Shown here: positions 6,247 through 38,712 of the stretch, one piece after another
How the letters are laid out: every line of letters begins with the position of its first letter
How positions within the stretch are numbered: position 1 is the first letter of the stretch
Position numbers and translations under genes: made by a program
The notes under the pieces: generated by a model
Databases searched by the model: none
Seen by the model: the letters and a program-made list of their open reading frames with translations, nothing else
Told to the model about the DNA's origin: nothing
Assembly: GCA_947306495.1 (NCBI GenBank)
Contig: CAMZGT010000013.1
Location: 1 to 41,135 of the forward strand
Direction: 5' to 3'
Length of the DNA: 41,135 nt
DNA from: an uncultured Acinetobacter sp.
GTDB lineage: Bacteria > Cyanobacteriota > Vampirovibrionia > Gastranaerophilales > Gastranaerophilaceae

Positions 6247-6642
6247 ATGAACACAGATCCGATAGCAGATATGCTAACAAGAATCAGAAACGCTAATGTC
6301 GTTTCACACCCAACAGTAGAATTACCTTCTTCTAAATTAAAAGTTGCTTTAGCTAAGCTTTTAAAATCTGAAGGTTTTATTACTGATTACTCAGAAAGAG
6401 TAGAAGGCAGCTTTAAATACTTAACAATTACTCTTAAGTATGATGAAGCTAACAAGCCTGTTATCACAAACCTAAAACGAGTTTCTAAACCGGGTTTGAG
6501 AAGTTACTGCAAGGCTAAAAACTTACCACAGGTATATGGTGGATTAGGTATTGCTGTAGTTTCAACCAGCAAAGGTCTTTTAACAGATCGTAAAGCCAGA
6601 AAAGAAAACCTTGGCGGTGAAGTTCTTTGCTATGTATGGTAG
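6247..6642 (+). CDS. rpsH: 30S ribosomal protein S8 (uS8)
   Basis: S8 binds the central domain of 16S rRNA early in 30S assembly. The 131-residue product begins [16 protein letters not shown], the canonical S8 start, and ends with the conserved [28 protein letters not shown] 6247 is chosen over an in-frame upstream start at 6202 because the family begins exactly here and AAAAGGAT precedes it. In most bacteria rpsH follows rpsN (S14) directly in the spc operon; here its upstream neighbour is a long non-coding stretch. Sequence and length are otherwise normal. Confidence 0.97.
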
Positions 6643-6836
6643 CGGATTTTGGCAAGGCTGAAGCGAACGTCAGTAAGCAGAACGCCGTCCCAGTGAGGAT
6701 ACTGAAATGAACGTCTTTTTGCCTCAGCAAAATATAGTGAATGAAAGTATACGAACTGCCAACAATCCAAGACCTTAAAAATTTATCACATTAGAAAACA
6801 GGTCATTGACAGAAAGCCTGTTAGAAAGGAAAAATT
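6643..6836 (+). other. 194-base structured spacer between rpsH and rplF
   Basis: Ribosomal protein genes are normally only a few bases apart, so this spacer is unusually long. Its first 90 bases are GC-richer than the surroundings and carry the direct repeat GAACGTC. Its end holds the hairpin AACAGG (6797-6802)/CCTGTT (6817-6822) just before the AGAAAGGA ribosome site. No open frame or known RNA family was recognised. Confidence 0.45.
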
Positions 6837-9942: not shown

Positions 9943-10352
9943 TGAAATCTTTAAAAATATTTCTGGTAACTATAATAACATTATTATCCTTATGTTCCTG
10001 TACAAACGACAAAGGCCTGATATTATTTAACACCCAGCCTATAACAAAAGAAAACACGTTGAAAGACCAAAAAACTTTTTTTACAGGTACAAAAATATAT
10101 TACCTATTCATAGCACCCAAAAAAATGAATAACGAATTTATACGAGTACAAATATTTAAAATGACAGATAAAGCTCCTTGGGGCGGCTACGAAGTTGTGA
10201 GAACAAAAGATTACAGACTCATGAAGGATGAAAGATATTACCACACTAATTATTTTGTTTTACACGAAAAAGGCAGATATGTACTCCAAGTATTTTCACA
10301 CAAAGATTTTCAACACCCGCTTGCATTAAATTATTTTTATATCAACGATTAA
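9942..10352 (+). CDS. Putative lipoprotein
   Basis: This 136-residue product starts MKSLKIFLVTIITLLSLCSC, a short basic N-region, a hydrophobic core and Cys residues at 19 and 21 that could serve as the lipidation site. The mature part is beta-rich (YVLQVFSHKDF and similar) with no family I recognise. It starts in the stop codon of the secreted TPR gene, so the two are translationally coupled and probably act together at the envelope. Its 3' end overlaps the convergent flagellin gene by 11 bases. Confidence 0.7.
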   Translation: MKSLKIFLVTIITLLSLCSCTNDKGLILFNTQPITKENTLKDQKTFFTGTKIYYLFIAPKKMNNEFIRVQIFKMTDKAPWGGYEVVRTKDYRLMKDERYYHTNYFVLHEKGRYVLQVFSHKDFQHPLALNYFYIND

Positions 10353-11160
10353 TAGCACCAAGAAGCTGTAATGCAAGTGCAGGTTGTTGATTTGCGGTAG
10401 CTAAAAGCGTGGCACTTGCTTGCTGAAGAATTTGATATCGTATAAAATCACTTGAAACTTTTGCAATATCAGCATCACGTATAGTAGAAAGAGATGAAGA
10501 CAAATTGTTTTTCATCACTTCCGCATAATCTAAAGCATAAGTTAAGCGATTTTGAGAAGCACCTATCTTTGTTTGATATGTGTTCAAATCATCTAAAATA
10601 TCATCTAAAACCTCCAACGAAGACGGATTAGTTATATCTAAATCTTTTATAGAATTTAGTCCTTCTGCATTAAGTTTAGTCTGAACGGATACCATTGACG
10701 AAGAGGATGAATTGATTCCGACCTGAATACTAATAGGATTCTCTTTTTCAAAAATTTTAATGCCATTAAATTCTGTCCCATTTTTAATCCGGTTAATTTC
10801 TTCTAAACGTCCCTCAATTTCCGCTTGAATCGCTCTTATTGAAGCTTCTCCGTAAGTCCCGTTGCATGCTTGCTCGCACAAATCTCTTATACGCATAACA
10901 TGATTTGTTATTAATTCAGCAGTACTACATGCTGTTTCTAACATATTATAACCAATAGAAATATTATCTGTGGCAACATCCCATGCACTAAGCTTTGATT
11001 CCATGTTTTTCATGATGGAATAATTTGCAGCATTATCTTTTGCATGATTAATTTTGTACCCAGTAGTCAGCTGCTCAATACATCTGTTAAGTCCTTCTGT
11101 GGCCTTATTCAGATTGCGTTGAACTATCAGACTTGTCATATTCGTATTCAAACTAATCAT
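10342..11160 (-). CDS. fliC: Flagellin
   Basis: This is the filament subunit of the bacterial flagellum. The 272-residue protein has the N-terminal D0/D1 signature (SLNTNMTSLIVQRNLNKATE, LTTGYKINHAKDNAA) and the C-terminal D1/D0 signature (IGASQNRLTYALDY, SSLSTIRDADIAK, ending QQPALALQLLGAINR). The middle is short, so this is a compact flagellin with essentially no surface-exposed D2/D3 domain. It is a stand-alone gene; no other flagellar gene is visible. A weak AAAGGA site lies 13 bases upstream. The intergenic region to the right contains a strong inverted repeat (11247-11270). Confidence 0.92.
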   Translation of the reverse strand: MISLNTNMTSLIVQRNLNKATEGLNRCIEQLTTGYKINHAKDNAANYSIMKNMESKLSAWDVATDNISIGYNMLETACSTAELITNHVMRIRDLCEQACNGTYGEASIRAIQAEIEGRLEEINRIKNGTEFNGIKIFEKENPISIQVGINSSSSSMVSVQTKLNAEGLNSIKDLDITNPSSLEVLDDILDDLNTYQTKIGASQNRLTYALDYAEVMKNNLSSSLSTIRDADIAKVSSDFIRYQILQQASATLLATANQQPALALQLLGAINR

Positions 11161-35339: not shown

Positions 35340-35368
35340 TTGACAATATACTATGCTCTTGGTATATT
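35340..35368 (+). promoter_or_regulatory. Consensus promoter for tRNA-Leu
   Basis: TTGACA (35340-35345), exactly 17 bases, TATATT (35363-35368). It is the closest match to the sigma-70 consensus noted in the window and faces the tRNA 80 bases downstream. Confidence 0.8.
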
Positions 35369-35416
35369 TAAGTGCGAGCGATGCTCTTCAATAAAGGAGA
35401 GGGGTAGACACACTCC

Positions 35417-35435
35417 AGGTCGTAAGACCTTTTTG
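35417..35435 (+). promoter_or_regulatory. Terminator-like hairpin in the tRNA leader
   Basis: AGGTC-GTAA-GACCT is followed by TTTT, between the promoter and the tRNA. Just before it, GGTAGACACACT matches the tRNA-Leu D-arm GGTAGACACGCT at 11 of 12 positions. It may cause premature termination or be a remnant of a second tRNA-Leu copy. Confidence 0.4.
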
Positions 35436-35447
35436 ACAACAGAATAT

Positions 35448-35526
35448 GGGCATGTGGTGGAATGGTAGACACGCTAGTCTTAGGAACTAGTGCGCAAGCG
35501 TGGGAGTTCGAGTCTCTTCATGCCCA
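35448..35526 (+). tRNA. tRNA-Leu, anticodon UAG
   Basis: The acceptor stem GGGCATG/CATGCCC (35448-35454/35519-35525) is perfect, with discriminator A at 35526. The anticodon arm CTAGT-CTTAGGA-ACTAG (35474-35490) carries TAG at 35481-35483, reading CUN leucine codons. The variable arm TGCGCAAGCGT and the T-loop TTCGAGT follow. The T-stem has two G-U pairs. The D-arm contains the leucine-type GGTAGACACG. CCA is not encoded. A consensus promoter lies upstream and a long hairpin starts at the very next base. Confidence 0.95.
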
Positions 35527-35572
35527 GTTATAGCCTCTTTGGGAGTTATCCAAAGAGGCTATAACTTTGTTT
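35527..35572 (+). terminator. Hairpin H1 directly after tRNA-Leu
   Basis: A 16-bp perfect stem (35527-35542/35550-35565) begins GTTATAGCCTC, ends GAGGCTATAAC and is followed by TTTGTTT. It is the probable tRNA terminator. A near-copy with compensatory stem changes lies at 36735-36773. Confidence 0.75.
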
Positions 35573-35585
35573 GAACGATGTTCGA

Positions 35586-35741
35586 GAACTCCCAGCCACG
35601 GAGTGGCTCAGAGTTCGAGCGGATTTGCGGACGGACGACACGAAGTTAGTCCGGATAGCGAGGAAATTGAGCTGACTGCAACAGAGTTGCAAAAGCGAAA
35701 CTTTCCGAGCGTGGAGCAAATCCAAGACGAGTCTCTTCATG
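35586..35741 (+). repeat. Structured module M1 (copy 1 of 2)
   Basis: This 156-base GC-rich element is paired with M2 (36793-36931). Its helices are GAACTC/GAGTTC (35586-35591/35611-35616), enclosing AGCCAC-GGA-GTGGCT. A long-range helix GGATTTGC/GCAAATCC (35621-35628/35716-35723) then encloses further hairpins such as TGCAAC-AGA-GTTGCA. It ends GTCTCTTCATG, identical to the 3' part of the tRNA-Leu T-arm and acceptor. GAGTTCGAG also matches the tRNA T-loop. A 65-codon plus-strand frame overlaps but shows no coding character. Confidence 0.7.
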
Positions 35742-35750
35742 TCAAAAAAG

Positions 35751-35774
35751 TAAGGTGCAAATAATTGCACCTTA
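35751..35774 (-). terminator. Terminator of the gene at 35783
   Basis: TAAGGTGCAA-ATAA-TTGCACCTTA is a perfect 10-bp stem. Read on the minus strand it lies eight bases after the stop codon and is followed by TTTTTT. Confidence 0.85.
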
Positions 35775-35782
35775 CTTGCTTA

Positions 35783-36451
35783 TTAATCTATAACTACATC
35801 ATCGTAATTAGGTTTTGTAAACAGAGGTTTTTTATCTTTAGGAACTATTAGAATTTCCTTAGGGGCAGAAGATATATATGAATCGTCAATCACCACATCA
35901 TCAATATCTTCTATTTTTTTAGTCGTTGTAGTTGTTGGTATTTCTAATTTTTTACCATTTGGTATATTTTCAGCAGCATACTCACCTTGTATCATAGTTT
36001 GTTCCTTTTTAGGAAGTGTAATACCAGCATTTTTAGAGTTTTTATTTGGTAATCTTTTTGTTGCTTTTAATTTATCTAAAAGGTCAAGGAAGAAATTTTT
36101 TCCTTTTCCATAATTATTAATTCCATCTTTTAGTCCACGAGAGAACTGACATTCTAAACCCATAAATTGTTCAATCCCCGCAAGAATTTTGTCACCTACG
36201 CACCATTCTATTCTTTTATACGAGGGGTCTGCTGGATTTGTAAATATATTTACCTTATCCACACCAAATTGTCTTAGCGGAGCTTTATTGCCATATACAA
36301 TTTCTTTTAATTGTAATTGTGTTCCTTTTGGCATTGCATATCCATCCATTAATATTTGTTCTGCAGACACCATACTTTTCTTTACATGAGTACCAGATTT
36401 TGTAATAATTTCAGATATTAACTTACCAATTCTTACAGGTTCAATTCCCAT
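35783..36451 (-). CDS. Orphan protein A with C-terminal DDVVID repeats
   Basis: This 222-residue protein is not one I recognise. The N-terminal 130 residues look globular (MGIEPVRIGKLISEIITKSG, a beta-rich stretch FTNPADPSYKRIEWCVGDKI). Residues 130-222 are low-complexity and probably disordered, with a TTTTTKK run and two copies of DDVVID, one internal (IDDVVIDD) and one at the very C-terminus. A GGAG site lies seven bases before the ATG, and the leader resembles that of the gene at 36941. It is the first of three minus-strand orphan genes in the tRNA-anchored array. No signal peptide is present. Confidence 0.6.
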   Translation of the reverse strand: MGIEPVRIGKLISEIITKSGTHVKKSMVSAEQILMDGYAMPKGTQLQLKEIVYGNKAPLRQFGVDKVNIFTNPADPSYKRIEWCVGDKILAGIEQFMGLECQFSRGLKDGINNYGKGKNFFLDLLDKLKATKRLPNKNSKNAGITLPKKEQTMIQGEYAAENIPNGKKLEIPTTTTTKKIEDIDDVVIDDSYISSAPKEILIVPKDKKPLFTKPNYDDVVID

Positions 36452-36549
36452 ATATTCTCCAATCTTACATAATAATTAATTTAATTTTATATTTTCCCTT
36501 TATTTATATAAAGTATTTTTCTTTATAAAAATTGCCTAACATTTTGCAA

Positions 36550-36737
36550 ATATTAAGAAATTGTTACAATTCTATGCTTACTAAATGTGCACAATTTCAC
36601 TTCACTCCTCAATTTTTTCGACAAAAGATTTCAGTTTTGCACCTAGAAAAAATTGCAACATTTTGGACTACCTCAATGCTAGACAGCTAAGCACTTTGGA
36701 GAATTCGCTGTGTTATGTTGTATGTTAACGTCCAGTT
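36550..36737. repeat. Direct repeat R1 (upstream of orphan gene A)
   Basis: Its last 92 bases (36646-36737) match R2 (37939-38030) at 89 positions. The first part carries the palindrome AATTGTTACAATT and a 10-bp stem CAATTTTTTC/GAAAAAATTG (36610-36619/36646-36655). Further pairings ACAGC/GCTGT and CAACAT/ATGTTG follow. It abuts hairpin H2. It may be a plus-strand structured RNA ending at H2, or the upstream control region of gene A. Confidence 0.7.
36559..36571. promoter_or_regulatory. Palindrome AATTGTTACAATT upstream of gene A
   Basis: This is a perfect 13-base palindrome about 108 bases before the gene A start. Matching copies lie upstream of the genes at 36941 and 38152. It is probably an operator. 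Confidence 0.5.
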
Positions 36738-36780
36738 ATAGCCTCAAAGGACTTGTTCCTTTGAGGCTATAACTTTGTTT
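36735..36780 (+). terminator. Hairpin H2, relative of H1
   Basis: A 17-bp perfect stem (36735-36751/36757-36773) is followed by TTTGTTTT. It starts and ends like H1 (GTTATAGCCTC ... GAGGCTATAAC), but the inner stem reads AAAGG/CCTTT where H1 reads TTTGG/CCAAA, so pairing is conserved. It follows CCAG as H1 does. The related site at 38027 lacks it. Confidence 0.7.
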
Positions 36781-36792
36781 TGACTAAGACGA

Positions 36793-36931
36793 GAACTCCG
36801 ACTGCGGAGCAGTCCAGAGTTCGAGCGACCTGTGAGCAGAGTACGAAGGACTTTTGCGAAAGTGCGACTAGCACTTGAAGCAAAATCCGCAGACACGTTT
36901 AATGCGAACAGGTCAAGACAGTCTCTTCATG
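36793..36931 (+). repeat. Structured module M2 (copy 2 of 2)
   Basis: This 139-base element is related to M1. GAACTC/GAGTTC (36793-36798/36817-36822) encloses ACTGC-GGA-GCAGT. The long-range helix is GACCTGT/ACAGGTC (36827-36833/36908-36914). Inside lie GGA-C-TTTTGC/GCAAAATCC with one bulge, and AGTGC-GACTA-GCACT. It ends GTCTCTTCATGCC like the tRNA-Leu 3' end. Helix positions match M1 while their sequences differ. Confidence 0.7.
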
Positions 36932-36940
36932 CCAAAGTAA

Positions 36941-37774
36941 TTATGCATCATATTTTAACAAATTTGAGAAGTTGGTTTCATATATCATTCCAAATTTATT
37001 AGCATAATTATTTGCTTCATGATTTATTCTAGCAATTTCTTCTGTTTTTGATACAGCTTTTTCTCTTTTCCCTAGCTGTTCCATAAGACGTACATATTGT
37101 GCTTTTATATCACCTTTTAAACTTTCTCCAGGGGGTAGAGATTCTATTATTTTTCGTATTTTTTTAAATTCTTTAAATTGTTCAGTTCCAAGTAATTTAC
37201 ACAAAGCGATATCTTCATATTTTTCTTCAAACATTTTAAATTTTTCTAAACTAAAATCTTTGCCTATCTCCAAACTATTAAATTCTCCTTTGCTATTTAC
37301 TGCTACAATTTTTTTTAATCTTAAGCTAAAAAATGTACCTATATCGCCTGGTATACCACTTAGAGGTGTTGTTCTACCAAAACCAAACATATCGGGATGT
37401 GAATGATAAACATCCAAATCTCTTGAAACCTCCGATTGGATTCTTTCCATCATTCCTTTTATGCTTTGAAAAGCTTTTGTTGCAGAGGAATGTGTACCAT
37501 CACCTTCACCAATAATAGTTGTTCCACGTTTTGCTATTACTCTTTCAAATTGTTGTTCTTGAGGTAAATCTAATGCTTTATGTAATCTATTAAAAATATA
37601 CTTAACTGCACTTTCTTCATTTTGGAAACGAATACTTCCATCGGATAAGCAAATTCCTAATTCAGAAAAATTTATTTTCCCAACAGGTTTTGTTTCAAGA
37701 ATGCTTCTTTTCCCGCAAGCTTGAGCATATTTTGCACAACGTTCTGCTAATGTTACTATTTTTTCGTATCCCAT
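36941..37774 (-). CDS. Orphan protein B with JAMM-like metalloprotease signature
   Basis: This 277-residue protein is named only by motif. Glu90 (IIGEGDG), His124-Ser-His126-Pro (VYHSHPD), Ser139 and Asp144 (PLSGIPGD) form the E...HxHP...S...D pattern of JAB1/MPN/Mov34 zinc peptidases. IVAVNSKGEFNSLEI follows as the next beta strands. The spacing from the second His to Asp is 18 residues, longer than the usual 11, so a loop insertion is required. The N-terminus is helical with three Cys; the last 100 residues are a charged helical region. AGGGGA lies seven bases before the ATG. Members of this fold cleave isopeptide bonds; the target here is unknown. Confidence 0.6.
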   Translation of the reverse strand: MGYEKIVTLAERCAKYAQACGKRSILETKPVGKINFSELGICLSDGSIRFQNEESAVKYIFNRLHKALDLPQEQQFERVIAKRGTTIIGEGDGTHSSATKAFQSIKGMMERIQSEVSRDLDVYHSHPDMFGFGRTTPLSGIPGDIGTFFSLRLKKIVAVNSKGEFNSLEIGKDFSLEKFKMFEEKYEDIALCKLLGTEQFKEFKKIRKIIESLPPGESLKGDIKAQYVRLMEQLGKREKAVSKTEEIARINHEANNYANKFGMIYETNFSNLLKYDA

Positions 37775-37845
37775 GTAAAATCCCCTGTTAAAATCTTACA
37801 TATATATAAAGTATTTTTCTCTGCAAAAATTGACAAAAATTTTGC

Positions 37846-38030
37846 AATTTTTAAGTAATTGTTACAATCTAACATTCAATAGTTTTGCAGAAAATCACTC
37901 TGCAATTTTTTCGATAAAGGATTTCAGTTTTTCGACTGGAAAAAATTGCAACATTTTGGACGACTTCAATGCTAGACAGCTAGGCACTTTGGAGAATTCG
38001 CTGTGTTATGTTGTATGTTAACGTCCAGTT
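37846..38030. repeat. Direct repeat R2 (upstream of orphan gene B)
   Basis: This is the second copy of R1. It carries AATTGTTACAAT (37857-37868) and an 11-bp stem GCAATTTTTTC/GAAAAAATTGC (37902-37912/37939-37949) enclosing CAGT-TTTTCG-ACTG. The highly conserved 92-base part ends GTTAACGTCCAGTT. Instead of H2 it runs straight into TTGACTAAAAC, which matches the linker after H2. Confidence 0.7.
37857..37868. promoter_or_regulatory. Palindrome upstream of gene B
   Basis: AATTGTTACAAT lies 83 bases before the gene B start, matching the site before gene A. Confidence 0.5.
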
Positions 38031-38035
38031 TGACT

Positions 38036-38066
38036 AAAACAGACCGATTTATAATCGGTCTGTTTT
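38036..38066. terminator. Hairpin H3, strong bidirectional terminator
   Basis: AAAACAGACCGATT and AATCGGTCTGTTTT form a perfect 14-bp stem around TAT. T-rich tails exist on both strands. It could end a plus-strand R2 transcript or the minus-strand gene at 38152. Confidence 0.8.
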
Positions 38067-38151
38067 AATATTAAAGCATTATTCTAACGAGTTTTGTTTA
38101 ACTTGTCTTTGTGTTTTGTTGGGTTTCTCAGAAGTGACAGACTATTATTTA

Positions 38152-38478
38152 TTATTCTAAACCTCGAGCAATAGAATTATATGCAACTATTTTTATTGCA
38201 TCACCTTTTGATATATTACCTTTATTGTATTGATTTGCTGTATATACAGCTCCAACCAGAGGATTCGACATAACCGGCATTAACAATGCATTTTTTGCAA
38301 CAGTTCCTAAATTTTCTTTCCTTTTATCTTTATCCACAACTGTATCAACAAAATCATATGTATTTGCATACTTATTTGTTGAATTTAAAACCTTTTGACC
38401 ATTTTCTGTAAGTGCAATTGCATTCTTTTGTTGTTGATTCGAAACAGTTTGATTTGCTCTAAAAGATATTGATAACAT
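38152..38478 (-). CDS. Small orphan protein C with F-x-A/G N-terminal motif
   Basis: This 108-residue protein is not one I recognise. It starts MLSISFRANQTVSNQQQKNA, close to the I-S-F-x-G motif of the protein at 16557. The C-terminal part has a mildly hydrophobic Ala/Pro/Val stretch (NALLMPVMSNPLVGAVYTA) that may form an amphipathic or membrane-associated hairpin. ATG 38478 is chosen over an upstream in-frame codon at 38493 because the leader TGTGGAGAAATAATG places GGAG six bases before it. The same leader occurs at the TPR gene at 11393. It is the third gene of the array. Confidence 0.6.
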   Translation of the reverse strand: MLSISFRANQTVSNQQQKNAIALTENGQKVLNSTNKYANTYDFVDTVVDKDKRKENLGTVAKNALLMPVMSNPLVGAVYTANQYNKGNISKGDAIKIVAYNSIARGLE

Positions 38479-38550
38479 TATTTCTCCACACATTACTACT
38501 TCTATACTTATATTAAAACGTGTAAAGTGAATAATTGCTTTTTTTTGCCA

Positions 38551-38616
38551 ATATTAAGAAATTGTTACAATCTAGTATTCAATAGCTAAGCAGAATTACG
38601 CTTCATTTTGCGTTTT
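38551..38616. repeat. Partial third copy R3 of the upstream repeat
   Basis: ATTAAGAAATTGTTACAATC (38553-38572) matches the start of R1 and R2, and TATTCAATAG follows as in R2. The conserved 92-base second half is missing. The palindrome at 38560-38571 lies 82 bases before gene C. The remaining bases to murI (38617-38712) show nothing recognisable. Confidence 0.55.
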
Positions 38617-38712
38617 TGTCTAAATGATGACAAGAATTTACCCCTTAATACAAAACTAAAATCATGGATAAATTATTTATCTCTTAACTCCACATAGCTT
38701 ATTTGTGATACT

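Follow-up and report, generated by a model that had tools for sequence, protein, structure and literature searches.

An Array of Modules and Genes Follows a tRNA-Leu Gene

The 41,135-nucleotide contig CAMZGT010000013.1 (GenBank assembly GCA_947306495.1, deposited as an uncultured Acinetobacter sp. and placed by GTDB in the Gastranaerophilaceae, order Gastranaerophilales) was analyzed over its entire length and is referred to here as the window; it is one (C13) of the 60 contigs of a 1.65-Mb genome. In it, a tRNA-Leu(TAG) gene is followed by three hairpins (H1 to H3), two structured modules (M1 and M2), three minus-strand genes (A, B, and C) and three repeats (R1 to R3) (Table 1). To the left lies a pyrophosphatase gene (H_PPase); the gene to the right, probably murI, encodes an Asp/Glu racemase. 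This order had been proposed in an initial annotation made from the sequence, and tRNA calls, open reading frames (ORFs), inverted repeats, and alignments confirmed that the arrangement is real. As also proposed there, genes A to C do not match one another. R1 and R2 are 92% identical over 136 nt and 76% over a further 100 nt, the arms of H2 and H3 are 100% complementary, and M1 and M2 have their ends in common (GAGAACTC...GAGTTCGAGCG and AAGAC.AGTCTCTTCATG) and both fold strongly. Support that these likenesses are not due to chance comes from covariance-model (CM) E-values and permutation tests. The locus probably consists of small integrative units, none of them autonomous, that are stacked in tandem where tRNA-Leu(UAG) of a Gastranaerophilales bacterium has its 3′ end, and would be a new variant of tRNA-anchored integration. 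The tRNA 3′ end had been predicted to serve as the anchor, and this is supported, but for two nested kinds of unit with different break points rather than for one: the M units break in the T-loop (58^59) and the gene-bearing units at the CCA end.

M Units and the tRNA T-Loop

For comparison, we used genome assemblies, many of them metagenome-assembled genomes (MAGs). M units are ∼165 to 330 bp long and consist, in order, of the host tRNA 3′ end from base 59 on, a terminator, a hairpin that mimics the tRNA T-arm, a "body" of 85 to 125 nt, and the displaced tRNA 3′ end; their break point lies after A58 of the T-loop. Both M1 and M2 end on the right in a repeat of the tRNA 3′ end, base 59 onward, a feature that the initial annotation did not mention. 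Bodies start with GCG and end with CAAGAC, and aligned copies from relatives fall into at least three types, type 3 being found at L098 and L116; 10 of 69 bodies from the window's genus and 2 of 51 from elsewhere fit no type.

A T-loop copy of the tRNA 3′ end was present in 69 of 172 tRNA contexts of the genus and, outside it, at 51 of 65 tRNAs in 82 loci (20 of which held no tRNA), fractions that are not prevalences, as loci were chosen mostly for holding bodies. The copy directly follows the body end CAAGA in 64 of the 69 genus cases, spanning 20 anticodons, and in 45 of the 51 others; with the other genera included, 27 anticodons have a copy that starts at base 59 right after CAAGA. Since this copy begins at base 59 of the neighboring tRNA, the layout is tRNA to A58, then base 59 on, terminator, hairpin, and body, then base 59 on again. 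As with tRNA-targeted integrative elements, the tRNA itself is intact and its 3′ end is directly repeated nearby. By comparison, M units appear to lie between T-loop bases 58 and 59, so that the tRNA would retain its whole 3′ end, with the terminator of the unit next to it and a second 3′ end on the right; the arrangement recurs at many other tRNAs, each M unit being fitted to its own tRNA. Bodies also occur in tandem, three at L235, five at L247, and two each at L089 and L085. The array reading is further favored at tRNA-Leu by L098 and L102, in which one hairpin frame has different bodies.

At a tRNA-Asp gene (L090:6442-12074), 5.3 kb with hydrolase and flavodoxin-like genes lie between two M units, with no integrase seen. 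In a single case, at tRNA-Pro(tgg) (L325; G005:C3:172600-176600), the tRNA copy is preceded by a body in inverted orientation.

Gene-Bearing Units, Their R Ends, and Their Cargo

The regions upstream of genes A to C had been taken for copies of one control region. R1 and R2 are indeed copies, but R is composite, comprising a promoter-like part and a 136-bp outer part that ends where the unit ends. The outer part, which terminates in TGTATGTTAACGTCCA, was found in 5 of 63 genus genomes (six matches, one of just 32 nt), and all five complete R ends adjoin a tRNA-type terminator. In G033, a gene of 225 amino acids (aa) and an R outer end lie exactly between the CCTCCA of tRNA-Ala and CCATAAAA; because this outer end stands behind a gene that reads towards it, R is not merely a duplicated control region. 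A unit in G005, likewise between CCTCCA and CCATAAAA at tRNA-Ala, starts with GTTATAGCC, contains an M with a tRNA-Leu-type right copy, a gene, and R, and stops before the tRNA-Ala's own CCATAAAATACACG. The Leu-type M inside a unit at tRNA-Ala indicates that the unit appears to have traveled with its M to another tRNA. Comparison thus shows that gene-bearing units with the common R outer end are bounded at the CCA end. The H3 segment also follows the tRNA or a copy of it in G020, G024, and G056, where it is accompanied by other genes.

Sites related to the promoter-like part of R number ∼39 in the window's genome (39 of 44 matches, three hairpin and two 17-nt matches being excluded). Within 3.5 kb of a tRNA, 12 of the 39 lie downstream and 2 upstream, with ∼2.6 expected; counted once per tRNA, the figure is 9 of 36 (binomial tail 4e-4).

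The cargo varies. Among 39 other tRNA-Leu(tag) loci, several of them truncated by the end of a contig, genes A and C are absent throughout, and a remnant of gene B is present in one (L101). Neither outcome that the initial annotation had named as speaking against a mobile array, an identical arrangement throughout the relatives or M and R confined to this locus, occurred. Gene A has four proteins in our collection, itself included, and neither gene A nor gene C has a Pfam match. A 57% relative of gene C lies ∼2 kb below tRNA-Arg(cct) in G047. Gene B belongs to a larger set of 42 proteins, itself included, four of them alike in the first part only, with sites at tRNA-Leu, Gly(ccc), and Glu(ctc) and near Lys(ctt). 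Its JAMM-like motif (E, HxH, SxxD) appears as invariant columns, with a spacing of its own (S139-x4-D144), and its predicted model may be MPN-like; the sole Pfam hit is subthreshold. Gene B looks like a JAMM/MPN metalloprotease. Some proteins have only its first 30 to 40 residues in common with it.

The T-Arm-Mimic Hairpin Covaries with the Host tRNA

In the M hairpin, the 3′ arm repeats tRNA bases 49 to 58 and the 5′ arm is their complement. Ahead of the 5′ arm lies a stretch complementary to tRNA bases 59 to 63; the two nucleotides between this stretch and the arm read GA in 52 of 61 records. For the genus, we permuted tRNA 3′ sequences among 24 classes (39 of 53 records) and scored the outer pairing, P1, in register: 3.70 of 6 pairs formed, compared to 3.06 ± 0.14 after permutation, a value reached in 0 of 5,000 permutations. 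The signal was found at offset 2 only, with nothing at offsets 0, 1, 3, or 4. Loci fetched afterwards from other genera (26 of 45 records, 19 classes) gave 4.12 versus 3.53 ± 0.15 (0 of 5,000), again at offset 2 only. Among the 61 records with an arm starting GAA, Watson–Crick pairs numbered 220, versus 151 ± 8.6 when permuted. In the genus test, the sense mimic likewise tracks its own tRNA (3.93 of 5 versus 2.36 ± 0.19). A looser P1 test, superseded by the in-register one, covered 59 of 64 CAAGA records (53 distinct; L086, L092, L099, L116, and L298 excluded), and its observed value was reached by 4 of 20,000 permutations. M-site folds were also stronger than those of shuffled sequences (mean z −3.15; 60 of 108 sites). 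Read from the sequence, M2 of the window has good P1 pairing (AGAC with GTCT).

These in-register P1 and P2 covariations suggest a feature of the integron type, an imperfect hairpin with end-to-end pairing. Because the 5′ arm is close to being the host T-arm's reverse complement, at a constant register that leaves an internal loop of 2 nt (GA/GA), the M site might, though we are less sure of this step, be recognized as a folded hairpin, like an integron attC with the tRNA as its attI. The covarying hairpin raises a testable question, namely, whether a recombination site can be retargeted by base pairing rather than by a change of enzyme.

Bodies Are Widespread in the Family

The type-1 model matched 58 of 65 genus genomes, with up to at least 55 matches per genome, and the type-2 model 64 of 65 (no match in G001), with up to at least 32 (per-genome match counts are lower bounds). 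The latter has 7 matches in the window's genome, so the modules are not confined to the array. A weak type-1 match also lies far from the array at window positions 6641-6774 (23.4 bits, E 9e-4). Across the order, type-2 bodies were found in 148 of 192 sampled genomes and 31 of 45 genera, 139 of the 148 belonging to the window's family. Among the matches listed for an exact 22-base type-1 pattern (80 of at least 118 stretches), most are from Candidatus Gastranaerophilales, Melainabacteria, or gut MAGs; one Muribaculaceae and one Alphaproteobacteria record among them may be binning errors. The earlier proposal that the region grew by repeated insertion is supported, as are the presence of modules elsewhere and the variation in cargo. 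The units, very small and anchored at tRNAs, make up a family that is widespread in an important group of uncultured gut bacteria; they have strain-specific genes beside them and offer a handle on the spread of small orphan genes without an integrase of their own.

The Enzyme Question

No integrase had been seen at the locus, and we found no integrase match among 23 of the 34 window ORFs of at least 120 aa (genes A and B, the putative murI, and 20 others) or in gene C, by Pfam and with the intI model not run. The units do not contain a recombinase gene of their own: M units of 165 to 330 bp are too small, and no genes other than A and B are present in the gene-bearing units U1 and U2. The window's genome has five PF00589 matches, and the four listed all lie on other contigs. 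Integrase-family genes occurred in all 63 genomes searched; G027, G031, G037, and G057 (83 to 96% complete) have two such matches only, a pair that we take, by analogy, to be XerC/XerD-like, and bodies are still present in them. These data support the earlier suggestion that the driver acts in trans or has been lost. Units would have been moved by a site-specific recombinase in trans, the candidates being the host Xer pair, the tyrosine integrase of a helper element, which may since have been lost, or a large serine recombinase, the class to which DsiB of Dehalococcoides reportedly belongs.

A larger element is found at tRNA-Leu(gag) in G011 (L086:6330-12355). It spans 5.7 kb, encodes a tyrosine integrase and a helix-turn-helix (HTH) protein, and has direct repeats of ∼230 bp, each with a whole M unit.

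We also considered the R end as a dif site. The genus has a dif-like candidate, ATAATATATATTATGTAAGA/AAAA, that is nearly invariant and occurs once per genome in many genomes (e.g., G005:C7:49227-49246); compared by eye, TGTATGTTAACGTCCA looks unlike it.

Integration of Whole Units and Its Alternatives

Under integration, one would expect old chromosome to continue to the right of the copy. We compared occupied with unoccupied tRNAs of the same anticodon; 72 of 128 occupied tRNAs could be compared with remnant-free unoccupied ones. With a filter, devised after the first result, that set aside tRNAs with unit-like remnants (58 of 129 kept), six of the 72 comparisons matched only right of the copy and none only inside the unit (cut 0.8). 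The rationale of the filter is that where remnants are present, the terminator next to the tRNA would still be that of the decayed unit. The only plain partners are L074 and L082, which gave tRNA-Leu (L194 versus L074) and tRNA-Ala (L222 versus L082). The filtered result is in keeping with integration of the whole unit. Past movement of the units is supported by comparison.

Several observations weigh against this interpretation. With all unoccupied tRNAs included, the test gave 8 versus 14, in the opposite direction, and an earlier version, also with all unoccupied tRNAs, gave 43 versus 56, contrary to the model. Two of the filtered matches (L231 and L316) depend on L228, where a body is found after another ∼3 kb; two more (L058 and L073) depend on L066/L107, where the first feature is an H3 segment, as in a gene-bearing unit. 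No recombinase is linked to M units, and no excision or circle was seen in the assemblies. The G011 integrase was rejected as a general enzyme, as its relatives besides itself share only 23 to 33% identity, 20 of 65 genomes have a match, and the direct repeats of its element just enclose an M unit. The outer P1 pairing of M1 in the window, read from the sequence, is weak. A preference for the top strand by fold energy (better in 91% of sites) was likewise seen in 83% of shuffles and was discarded. Outside the window's family, the other nine type-2 genomes have few, weaker body matches (best E 3.7e-11). Outside the genus, one of the 51 T-loop copies, at a tRNA-Met (L503), is body-less. Finally, type-1 bodies occur within G/C-rich palindromes resembling repetitive extragenic palindromic (REP) sequences, between housekeeping genes and away from tRNAs (L078, L079, L083, L085, and others), and the tRNA model leaves these unexplained.

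The last observation favors an alternative in which the body (GCG...CAAGAC) alone is mobile, as in REPs or miniature inverted-repeat transposable elements (MITEs), inserted into hairpins by a single-strand enzyme (Y1/HUH, REP-associated tyrosine transposase [RAYT]) or one of the IS110 type, the tRNA copies being a by-product of preferred palindromes. Bodies are also exchanged inside a single hairpin frame, as at tRNA-Leu, where L098 and L102 have one frame and unlike bodies; a tRNA-Leu array contains, by eye, a RAYT-like transposase ORF (L116:3011-3553) flanked by GTCGGGTT/AACCCGAC palindromes; and the body at L325 is inverted. However, body-less copies number 0 of 69 in the genus and 1 of 51 elsewhere, so it seems that no palindrome was there before the body, and in the filtered test the flank right of the copy matched unoccupied tRNAs, which fits whole-unit insertion. 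We regard mobility of the body alone as rather unlikely.

It also seems improbable that the units are remnants of phage or island integrations at tRNAs, with inner parts deleted and decayed att sites left. Integrase genes do lie near tRNAs in the window's genome (C2:18054 and C17:8743), and M units flank the integrase- and HTH-encoding element of G011. Such an origin is at odds with one architecture at 20 genus anticodons, a conserved body in 31 genera, and a covarying arm; moreover, viral contigs, plasmids, and phages gave no match to either M or R by exact patterns and blastn, which could miss diverged copies. That M is instead a transcribed RNA folding with or mimicking the neighboring tRNA, as a regulator or processing decoy, would accord with the strong folds and the covariation but is very unlikely, given that M lies behind the tRNA's terminator-like hairpin, that G–T pairs are not commoner than A–C (23 versus 27), unlike an RNA helix, that copies occur in tandem and in gene-bearing units, and that M has no Rfam match in the window, where the tRNA alone reached the gathering score.

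Features of the Array

Coordinates are collected in Table 1. Elsewhere in the window, a flagellin gene (Flagellin_N and Flagellin_C) lies at 10342-11160.

Table 1. Features of the tRNA-Leu array, in window coordinates
Feature	Position	Strand	Basis or remark
tRNA-Leu(TAG), anchor	35447..35527	+	ARAGORN; Rfam RF00005, 57.3 bits
M unit 1, 219 bp: tRNA bases 59 on, terminator H1, T-arm-mimic hairpin, type-1 body	35512..35730	+	
M unit 1 break points	A58^G59		GTCTCTTCATG copies at 35512 and 35731; geometry from relatives
H1, terminator-like hairpin	35526..35566	.	inverted repeat I2
M1 T-arm-mimic hairpin (GAACTC..GAGTTCGA)	35586..35618	+	outer P1 pairing weak in this copy
Type-1 body, GCGG...CAAGAC	35619..35728	+	CM R1, 131.6 bits; copy itself part of model
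tRNA bases 59-69, copy	35731..35741	+	
Gene-bearing unit U1, from one CCA end to the next	35527..36734	.	like unit between tRNA-Ala CCTCCA and CCATAAAA in G005
Gene A, 222 aa, orphan	35783..36451	-	
R1, promoter-like part	36502..36600	-	∼39 related sites in genome
R1, outer part; attachment end of U1	36600..36734	.	terminates TGTATGTTAACGTCCA
H2, terminator-like hairpin	36734..36774	.	inverted repeat I7
M2 P1′ and T-arm-mimic hairpin (AAGAC-GA-GAACTCC..GAGTTCGA)	36786..36824	+	
Type-2 body, GCGA...CAAGAC	36825..36919	+	CM R2, 95.2 bits; copy itself part of model
tRNA bases 59-69, second copy	36921..36931	+	
Gene-bearing unit U2	36735..38027	.	R2 outer end at 38012-38027
Gene B, 277 aa, JAMM/MPN-like metalloprotease candidate	36941..37774	-	
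R2, promoter-like part	37800..37899	-	
R2, outer part; attachment end of U2	37895..38027	.	92% to R1
H3, hairpin	38035..38067	.	inverted repeat I15
Gene C, 113 aa, orphan	38152..38493	-	
R3, promoter-like part only	38543..38620	-	71% over 78 nt

Comparison with Known Systems

Among the papers listed for the clade or its class, we found no earlier report of these tRNA-anchored units (titles and starts of abstracts). A folded single-strand substrate of the kind that M may provide is known from CTX-phi, whose folded single-strand attP is used by the host recombinase Xer; unlike there, no dif-like core was recognized here. REP and REPIN sequences with RAYT transposases are reported to be short, palindromic, dispersed repeats, as here (PMC2817692, PMC3116915), but M units are ∼165 to 330 bp long, matched to the tRNA, and bear tRNA 3′ ends. 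The attB of mycobacteriophage Ms6, in the 7-bp T-loop of tRNA-Ala, resembles the M break (PMC1762012); unlike M units, the phage encodes its own integrase and has one target family. The ssrA-specific islands of Dehalococcoides are of kilobase size and use a single transfer-messenger RNA (tmRNA) gene, with DsiB as the proposed recombinase; the part of that report consulted describes no tRNA-matched hairpin such as that of M (PMC3146451).

Integrons come close in form. The initial annotation had likened the locus to a gene-cassette array lacking attC core pairs, and the likeness extends to the hairpin form of the site but not to the core sequence or an adjacent integrase. In integrons (PMC2727003), gene cassettes form a tandem array at one anchor, as here, and attC, of 57 to 142 nt, is an imperfect hairpin whose inner part is unpaired and whose terminal structure varies, as predicted for the M site. 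In contrast, at the tRNA-anchored units neither an adjacent intI nor an R box was seen, the core that pairs is specific to the tRNA, the T-loop of a tRNA serves as the anchor, and there are many anchors per genome. An R′/R″ core with GTT at the break is likewise absent: the window reads A^GTCTC there, and other loci read A^ATCGC, A^GCCTC, and so on. It is a tentative and somewhat doubtful possibility that non-photosynthetic cyanobacteria have an integron-like system in which any tRNA T-loop may serve as attI and an enzyme in trans would read folded single-strand hairpins, with specificity residing in the cassette arm and retargeted by complementarity to the host tRNA. By two tested features the array is not an integron; it works like a tRNA-targeted integrative element and is attC-like in the form of its site.

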